DNA from: Apostichopus japonicus
Taxonomy: Eukaryota > Echinodermata > Holothuroidea > Aspidochirotida > Stichopodidae
Length of the DNA: 64,000 nucleotides
NCBI RefSeq assembly: GCF_037975245.1
Contig: NC_092568.1
Location: 126,001 to 190,000 of the forward strand
Direction: 5' to 3'
Position numbers and translations under genes: made by a program. The notes below the pieces were generated by a model. It did not search any database. It was not told where the DNA came from and worked only from the letters and a program-made list of their open reading frames with translations. How positions within the stretch are numbered: position 1 is the stretch's first letter; the number at the start of each line of letters is the position of its first letter. Below, in pieces: positions 2,893 through 51,221 of the stretch.

Positions 2893-5423
2893 TGATATTG
2901 TAGTGAGTTGGAAAATCCACAACAGTGAAACGAGGTATATATATATGTGGGGGACCGATAGTCCAATTTATTTTGTACGTGCTAATCTACCTATACAGTA
3001 TATGCTGCGTCAGTCATAAACAAACCATTGTAGGGACGTATATGCAGGAAACCATGCTGTTATTTCGGATGTTCTTCGAAGCACGTGATTAGGTGATTAT
3101 TATGGTCAGGCATCTGTATATGGGAGACAATGCACCATCAGCACGCCAAGAGTTACTCAGTATATATAGGTGGCATATAGGCTATACGGTTTGTTATTGA
3201 TCAAACGGTGTTATTACCATCATTCAGGCTATACATTATATCCACAAGGATGCCGTCTGTCCTTTTACAATTGTTATTAAACAAAACAGATAATTGAAAG
3301 AAGAGGAAAAAAATATGAAAATGTGGGCGGGGACTTATCACATCTCTCCCCTCTGCTAGTTAATTCGTGACTGTTAATTGAAACTATATACACTAATGTT
3401 GACTATAATAGAGTATTGAATGTTATTTCTTCACCTACTATATGAAAAATCATGCATATCATAGCAAACTTGAGAGCCTAGCCAAACAAAACAAACGTCG
3501 AAACGCAACAGGATGATTGATATGGATGTGTGGCGGGGTATTTTACCTTTTATACACGAATGACGTTTAGAGCTATACTAAACCAATTGGTCATTCGAGT
3601 CGTGTGCATGGAAAGTCCAAGTCGCCTACGGACCTTCGGCACAGGCTGAACAACTTGCCCCTGCTCTTTACGGTATCTCTCCCTCCCTCCGTAATTACAC
3701 GTATCCAGAGGCGGTCTGCAAACAGAGAAAGAGAAAAGTCAGTGAGGAGGAACTTTCTCCGCACAAATTACTGTTAATCTAACAATTTAGGGTATAGGAA
3801 TTGTACATACGACCAGTGAAGATTTTTGCCCTATACGGCCATACAGCAGCGATACAATGTATATTGATCCGTTCGACGTAGCCTAAAGGTGTTAGCCGTT
3901 CTTTTGACCGAGTCGATTTATTCCCAGGAATCTCCGAAATCAACTTTATTTCTCAGTTGTTCGTCAATAATTACCAAACTATCGATTATGACTGCAAAGA
4001 TAACTGCAATTGATTAATCTAACAGACAACATCCCAGAGTTTCTTCCACCAGATTCAAAGTCAATGGTCAATAATAATAATAATTGATGAAATTGAGACA
4101 ATACTCAACATTTTCTTGCATGCTTGCAGACAATCATTACGTTACTACTATAGACAACTTAAAAAAAAATGAACTGGAACCTATAATTTCCATAGAATTT
4201 TTCATCAACTTCATTATTTGAAATGAAACTGAACAAATCAGTCTAATTGAGGCTGAAATGGAAATTTTTGGGAATAGAATAGCTTTGAAACATTTGTCAA
4301 CTTAAATGAGCTACTTCTGCGAACTTTCAGATTGTTTCTAAACATAACAATTACGTGAAATTATGAAATGTTTGTTTTAGGAGGCCAGCCTTTGAATCTT
4401 CACAACCAGCATATACAGAGGCCGAATCCAGGCAGGAAACCCGGGATCTGGGGTGTGGGTGGGGTGGGGCGGGACTTGGCCTCGTCTGGTCTGGTTTTTA
4501 AAGTTACCCGCAAGCAAAATTAGTACGCTCGCGCGGAGCGGATGTTCTTCCGAGATTCCTGGACCTCACCGCCTGAGCGGTTGCATTACACCTCGATTCG
4601 TGCAAGTCCGTGGCCATATTCTTTATTTTGCGAGACCAGGATGAAGCCTTGCAGTCAGCCGGAGTGAATTAGCCCACTTCATTCAATAGTTTTCATATAA
4701 CTAATTCAAATGCCGTTCAATCCAGGGAACGAATACCTTGACATCATATATTAAAAATAGAAAATGACGTATTGCTGTAATAAAGTCTATTTGGTCACGT
4801 GCCAGACTATAGCAACAGCATGTACAGAATTGAATTTGAAAAGGTTCAAAGGCCTCTTGGCTTGTATACACGGCTACTTATCCAATAATATAGCACGTAC
4901 CATATATGGAATAACGAAAGCTAACATTTAACCCCACGTGACTATTTTGTTGTTGTTGTTGTCTTTCGTTTTATTGTGCAGAGCGATCTTAGCATTTAAA
5001 GCGGCGAAAATGTGTTTCTTGACAATTGAAGAAAAAGCAATGATATCTTCACGAAAAGGTACGCAGTGTATTAATGTATATTCCTGCTATGTGACGTTTC
5101 ATCGTATCATTCAATTTCAGGCATGACCTGTAAACGTTGCAAACTTAAAGCTAACATAACTGAAAGCATTACACTTATTAAAGAGCACATATATATTACA
5201 ACCACCTAGCTATACGTAAATCATGCACCATGTGTTTGGGGAAATATCGCGTTATTGGGAGTCAGACTTGTCGTGGAAAGAACATACACTAAACAACAAG
5301 TTTGGATACGAGTACAAATATATTTCCCTCTGTATGGTTACGAGTAGGAGTACGATGTTCTGAGTGCTAGTATACGAGTATACGTGTCTGCTAACACCTA
5401 CACTAGAGTTCCAAAATGCCCCG

Positions 5424-7345
5424 ACTACGAGTACATATCCACCAGAGGTGAGTACCATTACTGGTGACTATACGCTAGAGACGAATATATGAGTACAAAC
5501 CCACGAGAGGTGATTACTGATGAGTAGGCTGGAATACGAGTACATATCTACGAGAGGTGAGTACCATTACTGGTGACAAGACTAGAATACGAGTACATAT
5601 CCACGAGAGGTGTGTACCATTACTGGTGACTAGGCTGGAATACGAGTACATATCCACGAGAGGTGAGTACCATTACTGGTGACAAGGCTAGAATACGAGT
5701 ACATATCCACCAGAGGTGAGTACCATTACTGCTGACTAGGCTGGAATACGAGTACATATCTACGAGAGGTAAGTACCATTACTGGTGACAAGGCTGGAAT
5801 ACGAGTACATATCCACCAGAGGTGAGTACCATTACTGGTGACAAGGCTAGAATACGAGTACATATCCACGAAAGGTGTGTACCATTACTGGTGACTAGGC
5901 TGGAATACGAGTACATATCCACGAGAGGTGAGTACCATTACTGGTGACTATAGGCTAGAATACGAGTACATATCCACCAGAGGTGAGTACCATTACTGGT
6001 GACTAGGCTGGAATACGAGTACATATCTACGAGAAGTGAGTACCATTACTGGTGACAAGGCTAGAATACGAGTACATATCCACGAAAGGTGAGTATCATT
6101 ACTGGTGACAAGGCTAGAATACGAGTACATATCCACGAGAGGTGAGTATCATTACTGGTGACTATAGGCTAGAACACGAGTATATGAGTACAAATCAACA
6201 AGAGGTGAGTACCATTACTGATGACTAGGCTGGAATACGAGTACATATCTACGAGAAGTGAGTACCATTACTGAACAAGGGTAGAATACGAGTACATATC
6301 CACGAAAGGTGAGTATCATTACTGGTGACTATAGGCTAGAACACGAGTATATGAGTACAAATCCACGCGAGGTGAGTACCATTACTGATGACTAGGCTGG
6401 AATACGAGTACATATCCACGAAATTTGAGTACCATTACTGGTGACTATGCTAGAATACGAGTACATATCTACGAGAGGTGAGTACCATTACTGATGACTA
6501 GGCTGGAATACGAGTACATATCCACGAAATTTGAGTACCATTACTGGTGACAAGGCTAGAATACGAGTACATATCCACGAAAGGTGAGTATCATTACTGG
6601 TGACAATGCTAGAATACGAGTACATATCCACCAGAGGTGAGTACCATTACTGGTGACTAGGCTGGAATACGAGTACATATCTACGAGAAGTGAGTACCAT
6701 TACTGGTGACAAGGCTAGAATACGAGTACATATCCACGAAAGGTGAGTATCATTACTGGTGACAAGGCTAGAATACGAGTACATATGCACGAGAGGTGAG
6801 TATCATTACTGGTGACTATAGGCTAGAACACGAGTATATGAGTACAAATCAACAAGAGGTGAGTACCATTACTGATGACTAGGCTGGAATACGAGTACAT
6901 ATCCACGAAAGGTGAGTATCATTACTGGTGACTATAGGCTAGAACACGAATATATGAGTACAAATCCACGAGAGGTGAGTACCATTACTGATGACTAGGC
7001 TGGAATACGAGTACCATTACTGGTGACTAGGCTGGAATACGAGTACATATCTACAAGAAGTGAGTACCATTACTGATGACAATGCTAGAATACGAGTACA
7101 TATCCACGAAAGGTGAGTATCATTACTGGTGACTAAAGGCTAGAACACGAGTACATATCTAGGAGAGGTGAGTACCATTACTGGTGACTATAGGCTAGAA
7201 CACGAGTATATGAGTACAAATCCACGAGAGGTGAGTACTATTACTGGTGACAAGGCTAGAATACGAGTATATACCCACGAGAGGTGAGTACCATTACCGG
7301 TGACTAAGCTAGAATACGGGCATACGAGTACGGACTCACTACAAG
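5424..7345. repeat. 53-bp minisatellite array (TACGAGTA family)
   Basis: About 35 tandem units lie head to tail. Measured spacing between successive GAATACGAG words (5532, 5585, 5638, 5691) is 53 bp. The unit contains GAATACGAGTACATATCC, then ACGAGAGGTGAGTACC, then ATTACTGGTGAC plus a variable TAGGCTG or AAGGCTA linker. A longer variant with CACGAGTATATGAGTAC recurs near 6180, 6350, 6840, 6960 and 7200, so the array has at least two interleaved unit types. Each unit carries an AGGTGAGTA word like a 5' splice site. The array ends with TACGGACTCACTACAAG at 7329-7345, a 17-mer found again at 52430. There are no spacers, so this is not a CRISPR array. Confidence 0.93.
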
Positions 7346-8589
7346 TATGTTTGAAGCTTGTTTGAAGCAAGTGAATTAAGCTATATTATCATTAAATATG
7401 AAGATCAAAAGACAATCGTGAATTTCACTGACATTAATCCTGACATTTCCACCCAAATCTGTCTACCACCCAATTTAATTTGTAGTTTTATCCACAGAAA
7501 ACTGAAGGGAATGAATGTGAGGTACAATAGTCTATACCTGTCGCTAAGTATATACTGCAGGTATACTGTTACACATACCTTACATATTGGTGCCCACATA
7601 TCGCTTTAAGTTTGACACTCATGCATATTTGCTATCTTTTTGAGAGTCTTAATTGGGAGCCACTATATTTTGAGGAATTTATTGGCCTTTGGGATTCCTA
7701 TCTTAATGCTTTTAGGATTGGTTTTGGGAGCCTAGGGCCTTAAGATTGAACCAGTCTAGCATTAGTACCGCCAACATTAAAATGTCATCCCTCGATCATT
7801 TTCACCTTTGTTTTTGCAGAGTGACTGCTCATTTGCATGTAAAGGTGTGGGAGGGGGGGGGGGTGTCACACCTTTGACCATATTGGCTTTCAGGCAATAT
7901 CGGCTTTTGGGGAATCCCTTAAAATAAGCTTTTAAACTTGAACTGCTGGGCTCCAAAAATTAGCTTATGAAGTGGCTAAGACTATTTGGGCCCAAAAGGT
8001 TGGCTTTTTCAAGGCCCCTAAACTGACTGGTATCAATAGCAAAACCTAACAAACCTATTTTCAAAATCGTCACAGCCCTGCGAATACGGTGTCTGTGTAC
8101 GTTATTCGCCGGGCTGCCCTGCGAATAATCACTTCGTTAAATGAAACGAAGTTGTACAGTTTGTAGATGTAGGCCTACACGCCACGGCAGTAGCGGGACA
8201 ATTAGTAAGTGATTGGTGAGTTGTGTGATCGGCCCTTCAATTTGCAAGTGAACATGTGCCTCAAACAGTGAGCGAATTATGTTATTCTCGGATTCGGTGT
8301 GACCGGGACGTCACCGTACACACACTATCCTTAGCTATTCTCGAATTCAGGAATTCAGTGTGACCGTGACCATTTTTAGCCATAACCATATGACTTTTCA
8401 AGAAGGACAGTACTGTAAATAGTCTACTGGGGTTAAGTGTTCTACTGAAAAATCTTGCATAAAAAGCTTTGTAGTTTTCAATGGTATACACAGTATGCTA
8501 TGAACAGTGAATGCTTAGTGATAGCCACAGTAAAGAGACAACATGTTACTGACTACTGTATTTAGCTTGACAGGTACCAAATTTCATCT

Positions 8590-18435: not shown

Positions 18436-19186
18436 ATGCCTCCAGCAGTCTCACCAGCACCAGCCCCTATTGAATGGCCTGCAAGTCGCGGTAAGGACCA
18501 AACTTGTGCAGAAACCGTAGCATCGATCCCTTCGAAAACAGTTGTTGACCACGACGGTGAATCTAAGATGTCTACCTTCCTCAAATTGCATCAAATAAAT
18601 ACGACGAATAGGGCGATACGTAGCGTCCAAAATGCTTCCAACTTGTCACAGTCTTCCGAAAATTTAGCAAATGACAATTTATCACCGAGTTCATTATTAG
18701 TTCCAAGAGGTACCAGGAGTCCAAGATCCGGTAGAAGTCCATCTCGTATGGACAGGTTATGTCATAATCACGACGATGATGATGTTGTGCTTCCACAGGA
18801 ATTGTACCAAAAACTTCATGTTTCAAAGCCTACTCGTAAAACTTGCGATTTTGCCCATTCTCGGACCTCATCTTGCCCGTTTTTGCTTCTTGATTGCCGT
18901 TCAACTAAGGCCTTCAAGCAAAAACATATCGACGGTGCTCTTAATGTTAACTGTTCTAATAGGCTTTACTGTCGACGGTTACGAGATGGTAAAATGTCTA
19001 TCGCCGATTTAGTTTCATCAGAAGAAGGGAAAATTGTTTTGAAACAATCAAGCCATAACCAAAGAAGGGAAATAATTGTCTACGACGAAGACACTCAACG
19101 GACTGATAGTTTACCGACTTCTCACCCTACACTTCTGGTTTTATCAAGATTAAGAAAAGAAGGGACTAGAGCATCTCTCTTGAAAG
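18436..19186 (+). CDS. DUSP10-like exon 1: N-terminal extension and rhodanese domain
   Basis: Encodes residues 1-250 plus one base of codon 251. An in-frame stop (TAA at 18412-18414) lies upstream, so 18436 is the first possible ATG in this exon. Its context (C at -3) is weaker than that of the in-frame ATG at 18568 (AAG before ATG). The protein begins MPP as in vertebrate DUSP10, which supports 18436. The N-terminus has an SPRSGRSPSR phosphosite-like stretch and an HDDDD acidic run before the rhodanese domain. The donor is AAAG|GTAAGC. Reading on past 19186 gives an unrelated tail before a stop, so the splice is needed. Confidence 0.9.
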
Positions 19187-22100
19187 GTAAGCTCTTTCAT
19201 TTGGTTTTACGTTAATGATCATCACACATTCTCAGCAATTTTATAATTTTTCAGACATTGATCGTGATCGTTAAATGTAACGGACTAATTTTCTGAGATT
19301 ATGCCTACCGTTTATTTATTACCTCCACTTCTCTACTTTTAAATAGCATACTAAAACTGTGTACTGTACGTTGCTGATACTGTTTATGTGAAATCGACAT
19401 TTGTATACTGTATGTAGTGTGCGTGTTGCTATATAGCCTACACCATGTATGTTTTTTTAACAGTTTACCAAACTGTCAGTGCAAAGGTCAAATCTTTTTT
19501 TTTTTTACAGCCAAGGCCTTTCTTTATTGGTCATTGCAATATGGGAAGTTATCAGTTGTTTGCTTCACTCCTACGGTCCTAGCTGCTCTCCTGAAATTAA
19601 ATGTTTGTCGTGTTGCCGATAAGGTTCAATGTTTACCATTTGACTGTTAAACTGTATGCACTTCAGAATGGCAACCAGGGATAGTATAAACCAGGGATAG
19701 TATAGAGATAGGGAGAACAAACTTACAGTGGAATATTCCAGTGTACGTGTTAACTGGTTCAGTGATCAGCGTGAATGCGTAGTGATCGAGTATAGCACTC
19801 TTGTGAATTGATACCGTGTCAAGTTGAAGGTTAGCATCGGCCGAGGCCGAGGTACTTGCTGACAATACATAATGGAGAACAAAGACATTAATTTTGTCAA
19901 TTGTTAGCGCTATGTTTAGATTAAGGCAATAAAGGGTCTCTCCATTTGATCGACATCTCCCGTTTCCATATATCACCATGGTCTGTACAGAATGGATTAG
20001 GTTAGGAAATATGGTATCTTGACGGGATGGGAGAGCTGTTCAGGTTTTATATGTAGAGCGCATAACCTTGGTGAATAACTGAATCAAATAATACCCAGCA
20101 GCCGCCCCTCCCCCGTAATGTGCTGACTTGTAATTTAACTGTCTTTTTTCGTGCGGAAAACAAGCAACATAATTTTTAAACTTAAAAAAAAAGAGTTAAA
20201 ACAACAAGGAAACTTAACATGGTGCAGTACATACCACCTTTGCTTATAGCTTCTATGATGCTTTAAGTTGTAAAGTGCTATATTTTAATACGTCTGTCCC
20301 CCCATATTATTCGCAATATAATATAACACATTAATTTCTTAGTGTTAATTCGCCAAGGTCTATTTTCACTTTGATTCGTTAAAAAAGAAAAAAAAACATG
20401 GTAACAAATAGTCGTGGGTTAGAACAGTTCCTCCATTCTGATTGTTGGTCTTTTGTGTGTAAATAGTTCAGTATCTAGCAGGTACTGGTATAATGGTAGG
20501 ACCAGAACAATAGCAGGCTATATCGTTGACACCCTCTACCCACGCTGTGACTAATGATAGGCGTGATAGCGAATGGTGTGGGTATATAGGGTTAAGTCAT
20601 TTGTTGAGCAAGAAAATGATAGTCATCATAATATCGACAATTTGCATGATTTTGTAATTTCATATTAATTTTATGTTAACATATATATGTAGATTTTTTT
20701 TTAAATATTTCTTTTCTCCATTCTTCAGGTGGTATGCAGGCTTTTGAACAACGATACAGCGACATGTGCAATGCAGACTTTCAAAACGCAAACCAGACTT
20801 CATTGAGCCCTCTGATTATGAACGTTAACAGTGCGCCTTCAAACCTAGACTCGGCCGGGATAGAGAACCAGCCACCCCGGTGTGATTCGGCAAGTATCGA
20901 CGCTCCCATGGCCCGTATTCTGCCATACCTTTACGTCGGTGGGGACAAAGATGCTGCAGATATCGGCGAACTCAAGAGAAACGGTATCAACTTTATTCTG
21001 AATGTGACCAACAAGATCCCATGTTACCACGAGGGAAACGCAAACTTCAATTATCTGAGAATCCCAGTGAAGGACAACGGATCGGAAAACCTTCTTGCCT
21101 ATTTCGACGCTGCTTTCCATTTCATTGGTAAGGAACTATACCCTCGCCCCCCTCCCCCTCCCCTCCGAAACCAATCGCTTTTTAGGACAAAAACAAATGG
21201 TTCTGTATTTGTTTATTGGCTGACCGAGAAATTAGTCATAACATCTATACAGATGAAATCAAACTATACCTTGACCGCAAATTGAAATCGTTTGATGACA
21301 AAAAGAATATTTGTATTGATTCAATCTCTTATGGTTTAGGTGGTTTTGTTTTCACTCGAGAATTTTCTGCCTGCAGTGCGCATGACTCATTTATTAATAT
21401 TTGCATTTCAATCGCACTCCTGTACTGTTCAAGGTTACTTGCACCCGCATTGAAAACCGAAAACGATGACTTGTTTGTTTGTTCTTCTCTGAGTAAATAT
21501 TATAAAACTGAAGTGGAAAAAATGCCGCTTTGTGAAATAATTTTATTTAAATATATATATATATGTTGAAAGTATATGGTATTTGAAACATGCACTACAC
21601 ACATGATTTAAGGATGATTCTACTGTTTTAAGTTAGGAAACGACACAAGTGATGATATAGGTCAAATACTTCTGCAGTATGTTTATAGCAAAACGTGAAA
21701 CCAGACGTTTCGCTCTGCTTCAGTGCCAGCAGATATAATAATAACCTCGAATTTATTATGGATAAACCACATGTTTTCATACGCCTGATATCCTAAGAAA
21801 CAGACTCGCAACTCTTCGAGCCTTCAACTCCGCTGGTAGTCTGTCGCCAACTCGTGTCGCCTCTCTTTAATCCCAGTGAAATTAAGAAACCATCAACATC
21901 TTCACGAACAGTTGTTCACGTTGACTAAAATAGAGTTATGAGTCACGACGGTCGCATACTAATTTAGTTTTCCTTTGCATGGCGACGTGTTCTATATTTG
22001 ATAAGGTCGGTTTATTAATAAAGACCTCCATTGATTACATACATACATGCATGTATGGTTGTGTGTGCGTGTGCGCGCATGGTCTCTCTTGCCTTAGGGC

Positions 22101-32599: not shown

Positions 32600-32648
32600 G
32601 TCTAAACCAGGGAGTTGTTCCATAACAACCGTCCCTGCAGTCTAAACT
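32600..32648. mobile_element. Palindromic mini-insertion, copy 2
   Basis: The core at 32609-32636 has arm AGGGAGTTGTT, loop CCAT and arm AACAACCGTCCCT, which has two extra bases. GCA follows. The flanking direct repeats are GTCTAAACC (32600-32608) and GTCTAAACT (32640-32648), 8 of 9 identical. The small insertions in the right half look like later mutation or an imprecise event. Confidence 0.75.
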
Positions 32649-40400: not shown

Positions 40401-43093
40401 AAACACAAAACAAAATAGAAAAGAAAAAAAAAGGAAGAAAAACAGTTGCGAGCGTCAAAACGTCATGAAGTATAGATAAAAGGTTTGTTTACTTGAAATT
40501 CCGTGACGTGCAAATTGTTTTACGTTCCAAACATTGATCATTTTATTACTTGAAATACTTTCACGTCGTTTTCGTTTTGAAAATACATTTTTTGGGGCAT
40601 TATAAGTTATATAAAAATAATAAAAATTCACAAATAAATGATAAAATAAACCCTCAATCCAACTCAGATATCTCTATGGGGTATATACAACCATTTCACA
40701 GTTATCATACTTGTACGATTACCAGTGGGGCACACAGGATCAAGGGAGAAGGTGGAGGGGGGGGGGGGTAGTTCGGTGAGGCAACTCTAAATTCAACCCG
40801 ACTGGTTTATGTATAAGGCCTATGAAACTTTGTGGAAGAAACCGAGGCGAAGGAAGAAATTTGGAGAGGGCGTGGCGGTAGTCTCGTTGCAGCCGACGCC
40901 GGGCGGCGGTTGGGGTTTGGATACACGTTAAGACATCAAGTATTGCAATCTGAGGCATATATTTATACACTAAATTAGGTATATAATAGGGTCTAAACGC
41001 AAGGTTGGTGAGTGGAAGGGTACACCCGGAGGAGTTGCTTGCTTCTTCCCGACTGAATGATTGAACCATTTACACTGACTAGAGATGGGAAAGTAGGGAG
41101 TGAAGGGGGATGGGGGACACTCCACCGACGATCATTAATGGGCGATAGCTTAATATCGGGTTTGCGAACGTCTTATAATTGTTAATAATGTGACTCGCAG
41201 ACCGAGTAAGATTCACCTGGTGTTGCAGATGTAGTTGAAAAGGCTAATTGTTAGGTGTTCAGACCAGGGAGTTGTTCCATAACAACTCCCTGTTCAGACT
41301 CGGTATAGGTGTGTGAAGGAGGTAGGGTGTTTTGTGGTGAAGACCGCGTACTAGTCCGGTGTGCGAAGTGGGTGATGTAGGGTGCGATGTATAAACAAGA
41401 TCCGAAAAAGATTTCCGTTATAACCGTATGATACAGTCCATGTTGCACAGAAACTTTAACAATCCCCCCTCACCTCCCCAAACCTGGCAAATCTAAATTT
41501 ACGCCATGCGTCTTGTAATACATAAATAAAACCGAAGAATGTGCAGGATAATGTTAATTGACTCTCTAAAACAAAGGGAAGAAAAAAAAAACGCCTACAA
41601 TGAATAATAATTTATTTTTATGACTGCCTCCGCTATCTACGTAGTGGATTTTTTATTTATCATCCACGCATCAATTATAAACAACAACTATGTTTCTTAA
41701 ATTACGTAGCCAATTAACACAACAGTTTGTGCAAACTGGTTTCCTGTATGGTGTAATGTTAAAGGAAGTTTGGACTTATACCATGTACTGACTAATAATG
41801 ACACTTGGTTATATTAAACAGACTACATCAAAGAAAGGGATGACGTTGTTTCAATGTTTTGCTTGCACAATTATTGGTCACATGTTTGCTCATTATTAGG
41901 TAACATGGCCAAAAGGTTTTAAAGTAAGAAAACATTGTCAATGTTCTATCAGTGTTCTCGTAACTCAAATTTAACCGAGTGAACAGAGTAATACGTATTC
42001 TTGAAGTAAAATGTATATCACATGTTCGTGACATCATGATTCGTGTCAGATGATCCATGACACATGGAACGCCGTTCCTATACACTTATTCTCAAACTGA
42101 TTGTCAAAAATAGGAAGTAGTTATGTCGACGAACTTGTCTATCATATTGTCCGACAATCGTGAAATCGGTTCTTTTTGAAAACTGTAATCTTTTGTTCCA
42201 TTTTCAAATGACTGCACACTAAGCGAAATTCATCAATAAGTCAAAACACTTGCTTGCTGACTTTATGTATTACATCACTTGACTGAGTGTGACGTAACAG
42301 TTTCTACCAAAGGGGATTTTCATCTTTCTACCAGCTGGTTCTTGTTTCACGCTGGTTTATATTGTCTCTTCTTGAACAAACCAAATAACGTTTTTCATAA
42401 ACGGCGTACACGGCAGCTGCAAGTTAAAACCTGCATTATATTTTTAAAGTATACGGTATAGATTTCTCTCACGCCAAAACAACAAACCAAAAACGAAACA
42501 AACAAAACAGCAGATGTCGTCTTGCTGAATCTTATTCGACAATATTAATCATGTGGGTTTAGTGACGTCAGTATTATCGCTTTTCAACGGATGGAAAAAA
42601 AAGTCAAACGGGAACTATTTAAAGTACACAAAAATGTATACATTTTATTAACATGATTAGAAGTGACTACACGTTTTCTGTGAAACAAAATACAAGACAT
42701 ACTGCAAATTCATGCTGGTATTATCTGGTATAGTTAGTTTTGCAAGGAAGTAAACGTATTCAATAGTCTAAACATTGTTTTCAAAATTAATATATCATTC
42801 TGTCAATAAGTGATGTCATCGACATTGGGTCACTATGACTTAAAACCGTTACTTTCTTTTTTGCTTTTATCTGCATATTTGAACATTGTTGTTACTAAAA
42901 GCAATCCAATATCGTATGTCGACAGTCCGTAATGTACTGGGCGCGACCAAAAAGTGGGTGGAGAACAATTTGTATGTGGGTGGTGGAATTTCCCCCCTCC
43001 AAAAGCCGGTTTATTCATTAAAAAAAAGGTTTTCGAAGCTTGCCGAATGAGATCGATGAAATCATTTCTTTATATCTTTCATCAATGAACTGT
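37491..43093. other. Gene desert, third part
   Basis: No gene recognised. It includes a 22-T run at 38335-38356, C runs at 38551 (15) and 38706 (12), and G runs at 39567 (12) and 40757 (12). The palindromic mini-insertion at 41257 is listed separately. The remaining sequence is AT-rich with short uninformative open frames. Confidence 0.55.
41257..41300. mobile_element. Palindromic mini-insertion, copy 3 (intact core)
   Basis: The core at 41266-41291 is a perfect hairpin: AGGGAGTTGTT, CCAT, AACAACTCCCT. The direct repeats are GTTCAGACC (41257-41265) and GTTCAGACT (41292-41300), 8 of 9 identical. The core is identical to copy 4 while the flanks differ, which is what an insertion with target-site duplication would leave. 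Confidence 0.85.
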
Positions 43094-51177: not shown

Positions 51178-51221
51178 GGTTCAATCAGGGAGTTGTTCCA
51201 TAACAACTCCCTGGTTCAATC
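51178..51221. mobile_element. Palindromic mini-insertion, copy 4 (intact, perfect 9-bp duplication)
   Basis: The core at 51187-51212 is the perfect hairpin AGGGAGTTGTT, CCAT, AACAACTCCCT. The flanks are GGTTCAATC on both sides (51178-51186 and 51213-51221), 9 of 9 identical. It is the best-preserved copy and presumably the youngest. Removing the core and one 9-bp copy would give an uninterrupted pre-insertion site. Confidence 0.88.

Follow-up and report, generated by a model that had tools for sequence, protein, structure and literature searches.

P elements of Drosophila and their relatives are the closest described systems to the hairpins reported here. In P transposition the cuts in the two strands are staggered, one falling at the edge of the transposon and the other 17 bp further in, which gives 17-nt 3' tails, and the donor break is then mended either by homologous recombination or by end joining (excerpts of PMC7776569). 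Drosophila P-element excisions, as tabulated in PMC2895639, carry an 8-bp duplication enclosing at most 17 nt from each end, and comprise AT/TA joins, fillers, one-sided losses and near-complete losses, one near-complete loss accounting in the table for 14 isolates, the same number as the commonest short join. Galileo, also of the P superfamily, is described with 7-bp duplications of consensus GTANTAC (PMC4168063).

The sites that we describe in the genome of Apostichopus japonicus, which we read as probable excision scars and call scars in what follows, resemble Drosophila P excisions in having a target duplication, a part-end joined to a part-end, 2-nt microhomologies, short fillers and one-sided losses. 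They differ in that the fly has 8-bp duplications and 17-nt tails whereas the scars here have 7 bp and 18 nt, and in that the Drosophila junctions are laboratory events whereas ours are inherited sites (PMC2895639). Galileo shares with them a 7-bp duplication with a palindromic preference (GTANTAC) but is known as elements with long inverted repeats (PMC4168063), whereas the family here is known from scars only. A study of excision sites in two rice species likewise reads excision repair at genome scale, with deletions and fillers; unlike ours, it covers 94 putative excisions from several superfamilies through a comparison of two genomes (PMC4423477, as excerpted), whereas the family here is a single one, in one genome, recognised by its retained ends. 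The type of event is already known from laboratory P elements; what is new is a genome-scale population of scars without a visible source, and we found no description of such a population in the open-licence literature searched. The hairpin strings themselves are printed in 33 papers (any of four strings), and the 20 of these that were listed deal, by their titles, with other subjects.

Results

The window analysed here is a stretch of 64,000 nucleotides (64 kb; contig C8, 126001-190000) from a 671.6-Mb genome in 35 contigs. Direct reading of its letters confirmed the hairpin between direct repeats that a sequence-only reading had placed at 51178-51221, where the order is GGTTCAATC-AGGGAGTTGTTCCATAACAACTCCCT-GGTTCAATC. 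That reading had also reported one and the same core at four positions, which is true of two of them: the 26-mer core is exact at 41266 and 51187 (none of 100 shuffles contained it), whereas each of the other two, at 168 and 32609, is degenerate, with four mismatches in 26 bases, those at 32609 being confined to the right arm. The reported matches between the flanking repeats (8, 8, 8 and 9 of 9) were reproduced, although the copy at 32609 needed a 5-base offset.

The length of the target duplication was determined in a genome-wide sample of 44 loci in which the register was fixed by the exact core; three copies with the same left flank were dropped, leaving 41 distinct sites. Left positions -8 to -2 equal the right flank in 34-37 of these 41 sites, and outside this 7-bp span the matches fall to 9/41 at position -9 and 14/41 at position -1. 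A C stands directly before the core in 38 sites and a G directly after it in 39. Because C and G are this constant and positions -1 and -9 rarely match, the adjoining C and G are part of the insert, which reads C-AGGG...CCCT-G, and the apparent 9-bp repeat is a 7-bp duplication lengthened by the C and the G of the insert itself. The 9-bp duplication of the sequence-only reading was accordingly rejected. Mutator-like elements make duplications of about 9 bp; the 7 bp found here do not fit them, and the argument for a Mutator-like transposase, which had been drawn from the nine base pairs, falls. Duplications matching in at least 6 of 7 positions were present at 35/41 sites, compared with a mean of 0.8 and a maximum of 5 when partners were shuffled 1000 times, and the remaining 6/41 fell below 6/7. 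In a wider set of 90 sites (94 loci less four copies), in which the partner position was searched by script, 54 matched in 7/7, 20 in 6/7 and 16 in fewer positions. The 74 sites with at least 6/7 reveal a target preference, (G/C)T-NNN-A(C/T/G), with T at position 2 in 66/74, A at position 6 in 65/74, G or C as the first base in 61/74 and C, T or G as the last in 70/74. One common target seems to have been struck twice: at C1:7353295-7353342 (L010, L042) GTTTGAC is followed by a 15-nt single end, a second GTTTGAC, a 28-nt scar and a third GTTTGAC.

In the 7-bp register the four window sites resolve as follows (the scars have no strand; all duplications are given on the + strand). The scar at 51186-51213 is 28 nt long and consists of CAGGGAGTTGTT joined to CCATAACAACTCCCTG, that is, a 12-nt and an 18-nt end that overlap by TT. 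It lies between copies of GTTCAAT at 51179-51185 and 51214-51220, which match in 7/7 positions, the length of 7 bp being taken from the 41-site register test. An identical join forms the 28-nt scar at 41265-41292, between copies of TTCAGAC at 41258-41264 and 41293-41299 (7/7). The scar at 167-194 is degenerate, with four mismatches in the 26-base core, and is flanked by ATCCAAC at 160-166 and GTCCAAC at 195-201 (6/7). Also degenerate is the scar at 32608-32640, which has extra bases in its right part in addition to four core mismatches, and lies between copies of TCTAAAC at 32601-32607 and 32641-32647 (7/7). A scan of the window with a model of the ends returned the scars at 167, 41265 and 51186, with a partial row inside the last, and nothing in the reversed control; it overlooked the degenerate scar at 32608.

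In the whole genome, 603 places match AGGGAGTTGTT-N(0-6)-AACAACTCCCT, compared with none for the reversed control, a count restricted to copies whose arms are exact and whose loop measures 0-6 bases. Since the genome mean implies only about 0.06 exact copies per 64 kb, the window is locally rich in hairpins and is not representative of the genome, and the tens of thousands of copies that had been extrapolated from it are too many for exact copies. One arm followed by other bases was found at 152 places with AGGGAGTTGTTATGGB (control, 3), at 525 with AGGGAGTTGTTATGGAAD (control, 0) and at 150 with AGGGAGTTGTTATGGAB (control, 0); since these sets share places with the 603, the counts are not additive. 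Clustering was assessed on positions drawn from these four pattern searches, after removal of 14 known copies or family members, with the flanks of several other sites uncompared. On contig C2, eight sites lie inside 500 kb (20601044-20955378, about 355 kb; simulated p = 0.0008) and 16 gaps between sites are shorter than 100 kb (p = 0.007), while on contig C1 neither measure is unusual (p = 0.51 and 0.76), and we take the clustering as a hint only of local hopping. The hairpin was absent from viral contigs and present in two stretches of bacterial contigs, from Bacteroides sp. UBA7335 (L005) and Neptunitalea sp. Y10 (L006). Runs of A and T border the bacterial copies, which were read as intrinsic terminators and rejected as relatives; the window hairpins have no T run beside them, and the same explanation was rejected for them.

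The junctions between the arms are not uniform. Among the 50 matches listed for the 603-place pattern, the loops include none, AT, ACAT, CCAT/ATGG, TCCAT, TTCCAT, ATCCAT and ATGCAT, and the loci fetched from the one-arm and palindrome patterns show many different junctions between double ends. Single ends also occur between duplications, with 15 nt (L030, L036, L062, L073), 16 nt (L025, L034) or 17 nt (L139). What remains of either end reaches no further than 18 nt, CAGGGAGTTGTTATGGAA. Because junctions differ, single ends occur and retained ends stop at 18 nt, the hairpins are not copies of a single inserted element; nor do they have the common body between inverted repeats that defines a MITE, for there is no interior and the junction changes from site to site. 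Junctions were further surveyed in 144 loci, of which 100 were kept and 44 dropped as copies or as having a duplication below 6/7; scripted junction rows were in part in the wrong register or had a spurious duplication (for example L097, L100, L041, L082 and L105), and the patterns pick sites that retain ends, so that scars that lost their ends are invisible to them. Inserts longer than 36 nt in this survey were L033 (40 nt, including part of a second end copy) and L105 (38 nt, in a doubtful register); L067, with a 42-nt insert and a 5/7 duplication, was excluded from the 100-locus survey.

At the long extreme, AGGGAGTTGTTATGG-N(0-12)-CCATAACAACTCCCT matches 20 places, each with at least 16 nt of both ends. 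The middles are a single base in four, AA/TT in eight, AT in one, AAT/ATT in four, and GAT, AATT and AACAT in one each; fillers of 6-12 bases, which the pattern allowed, were absent from the 20 places. Two CAGGGAGTTGTTATGGAA ends of 18 nt, shortened by 0-2 bases, account for 18 of the 20, the exceptions being GAT and AACAT. In the palindrome set, which was picked by the first and last 11 core bases with a loop of at most 6 and in which total length is consequently capped, 30/36 sites retain exactly 18 nt of one end and the 28-nt form is much the commonest (25/36, mirror images and point variants of the outermost base included). When all prefixes and suffixes of two 18-nt tails were combined, 274 products resulted. 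A microhomology of 2 nt is present in six of them: a mirror-image pair of 28 nt, two of 25 nt, one of 24 nt and one of 26 nt. The 28-nt form in the window is one of these six predicted joins, and the predicted 24- and 26-nt joins were met in the genome (L091 and L078). The 25-nt join CAGGGAGTTGTTATGGAACTCCCTG lies outside the patterns used and stands as a forecast.

Scars in duplicated stretches share one common junction (L107/L109/L114; L125/L126; L127/L129/L134/L136/L140), which indicates that scars were inherited when the stretches were copied. The last group, five of 20 fetched places, is a 27-nt scar inside a dispersed repeat (flank CTCTGTC), where it has been copied together with another repeat.

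An intact element with scar-type ends was not found at the places fetched (50 of the 152, 30 of the 525, 20 of the 150 and 44 of the 603). At 30 fetched loci no right end with a duplication of at least 5/7 appeared beyond scar length within 1.5 kb, and 14 sites without a clean duplication had no common sequence past the end, the longest match (12 nt, L066/L069) being scar sequence itself. P-type transposases are nonetheless present: stretches of the genome gave 40 matches to PF21788, compared with none in 14 control genomes, but none was tied to scar-type ends at the places examined. Three P-transposase frames were scanned. All three match RNase H and GTP-binding families, and the one of 764 residues (L148) also matches the P-type helix-turn-helix family; a THAP domain was reported in none of them. 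The 764-residue frame resembles the Drosophila P transposase of solved structure 6p5a (E = 3e-26). Examination of 10, 8.5 and 7 kb around these stretches disclosed a complete P element of 8.0 kb (L151:763-8761, contig C17) that contains the 764-residue frame, open in the assembly, and no convincing element ends in the other two surroundings (L152, L153). The inverted repeat of the complete element is perfect over 34 bp and begins CATAGAGCTTAATAATAA; its target duplication, ACCGAGAA, is of 8 bp. It is like the scars in its CA...TG ends, and carries a P-type transposase, but is unlike them in its end sequence and in the length of its duplication, and it has no scars by the pattern used, no place carrying at least 13 bases of both its ends. 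Broken P-transposase stretches with internal stops cluster on contig C16, at 5188063-6079690 and nearby.

Discussion

Most likely, the hairpins are end-joined scars left by the excision of a larger cut-and-paste transposon, now departed, that we infer to have belonged to the P superfamily. The ends of this source element would begin CAGGGAGTTGTTATGGAA, and its insertion would have duplicated 7 bp of target. To leave, its transposase would make a staggered cut at each end, severing one strand at the edge of the element and its partner about 18 nt further in. The element would then be gone from the site, and both chromosome ends would keep an 18-nt tail of transposon sequence, presumably single-stranded and with a 3' end. 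Repair of the break, presumably in the germline, would then fuse the tails by end joining, often with the last A or AA of one paired with T or TT inside the other, and the outcome would be a near-palindrome of at most 36 nt between two 7-bp repeats. Varied junctions, 7-bp duplications, an 18-nt limit and joins at short microhomologies are what the sites display, and excision scars of the P superfamily have the same marks (a duplication of 7 or 8 bp, a limit set by the length of the cut, and varied short-microhomology junctions), the limit agreeing in principle and differing in number, with 18 nt here and 17 in Drosophila. The transposase would be one of the P superfamily or that of an element working likewise; membership of the source element in the superfamily is likely, and its transposase probably stood on the Galileo-like, 7-bp side.

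The sequence-only reading had seen in the hairpins the footprint of an insertion, and part of this survives: two terminal inverted repeat ends are fused with nothing between them, and a target-site duplication encloses the pair. What does not survive, given the varied junctions, the single ends and the 18-nt limit, is a 26-bp unit that inserts itself. A miniature element of 26-28 bp, mobile by itself or mobilised by a transposase, could appeal to the predominance of the 28-nt form and to the fact that every copy lies inside its own duplication, but the former is predicted as a microhomology join, neither differing junctions nor single ends suit such a unit, and a paper on Anopheles (PMC1562414) states that deleted P elements of Drosophila stay mobile only if no less than 138 and 216 bp of the ends are left; we regard such a miniature element as very unlikely. 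Less probable still is a programmed removal from body cells of elements that persist intact in the germline. Intact elements are indeed missing at the sites examined, but identical junctions in duplicated stretches argue against healing in body cells only, and two of the window scars, those at 168 and 32609, carry mutations.

A larger share of doubt attaches to the superfamily. The sites could be excision scars of another superfamily with 7-bp duplications and long staggered cuts, which would accord with the lack of a transposase tied to scar ends at the places examined and with the different ends and 8-bp duplication of the genome's complete P element. CA...TG ends, a 7-bp GT-NNN-AC duplication and tails of about 17 nt are, however, the description of the P superfamily in the relevant parts of PMC7776569, PMC4168063 and PMC2895639, and P-type transposases occur in this genome; we consider another superfamily improbable. 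With the excision-scar reading as the preferred one, it can be speculated, though we find it rather doubtful, that scars are all that is left of this transposon family, with hundreds of inherited sites and no element surviving; nearly every copy would have been cut out and not restored, through the transposase of the family or through a domesticated "cleaner" transposase.

Excision junctions are usually gathered singly, one laboratory event at a time; here hundreds of outcomes of one type of break stand in one genome, and the use of microhomology, trimming and filler in end joining becomes readable at evolutionary scale in a non-model animal. In repeat catalogues such scars could pass as miniature elements. 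The family also raises a testable question about the fate of its elements.

Two other features of the window were recorded. A tandem array with a 53-bp period occupies 5407-7361, and 18436-19215 and 20734-21285 are exons of a protein with rhodanese and dual-specificity phosphatase domains. The protein of 18436-19215 (rhodanese domain) has four relatives, of which the one that is named, dual-specificity phosphatase 10-like of the starfish Patiria miniata, is 48% identical to it over 53% of the query.
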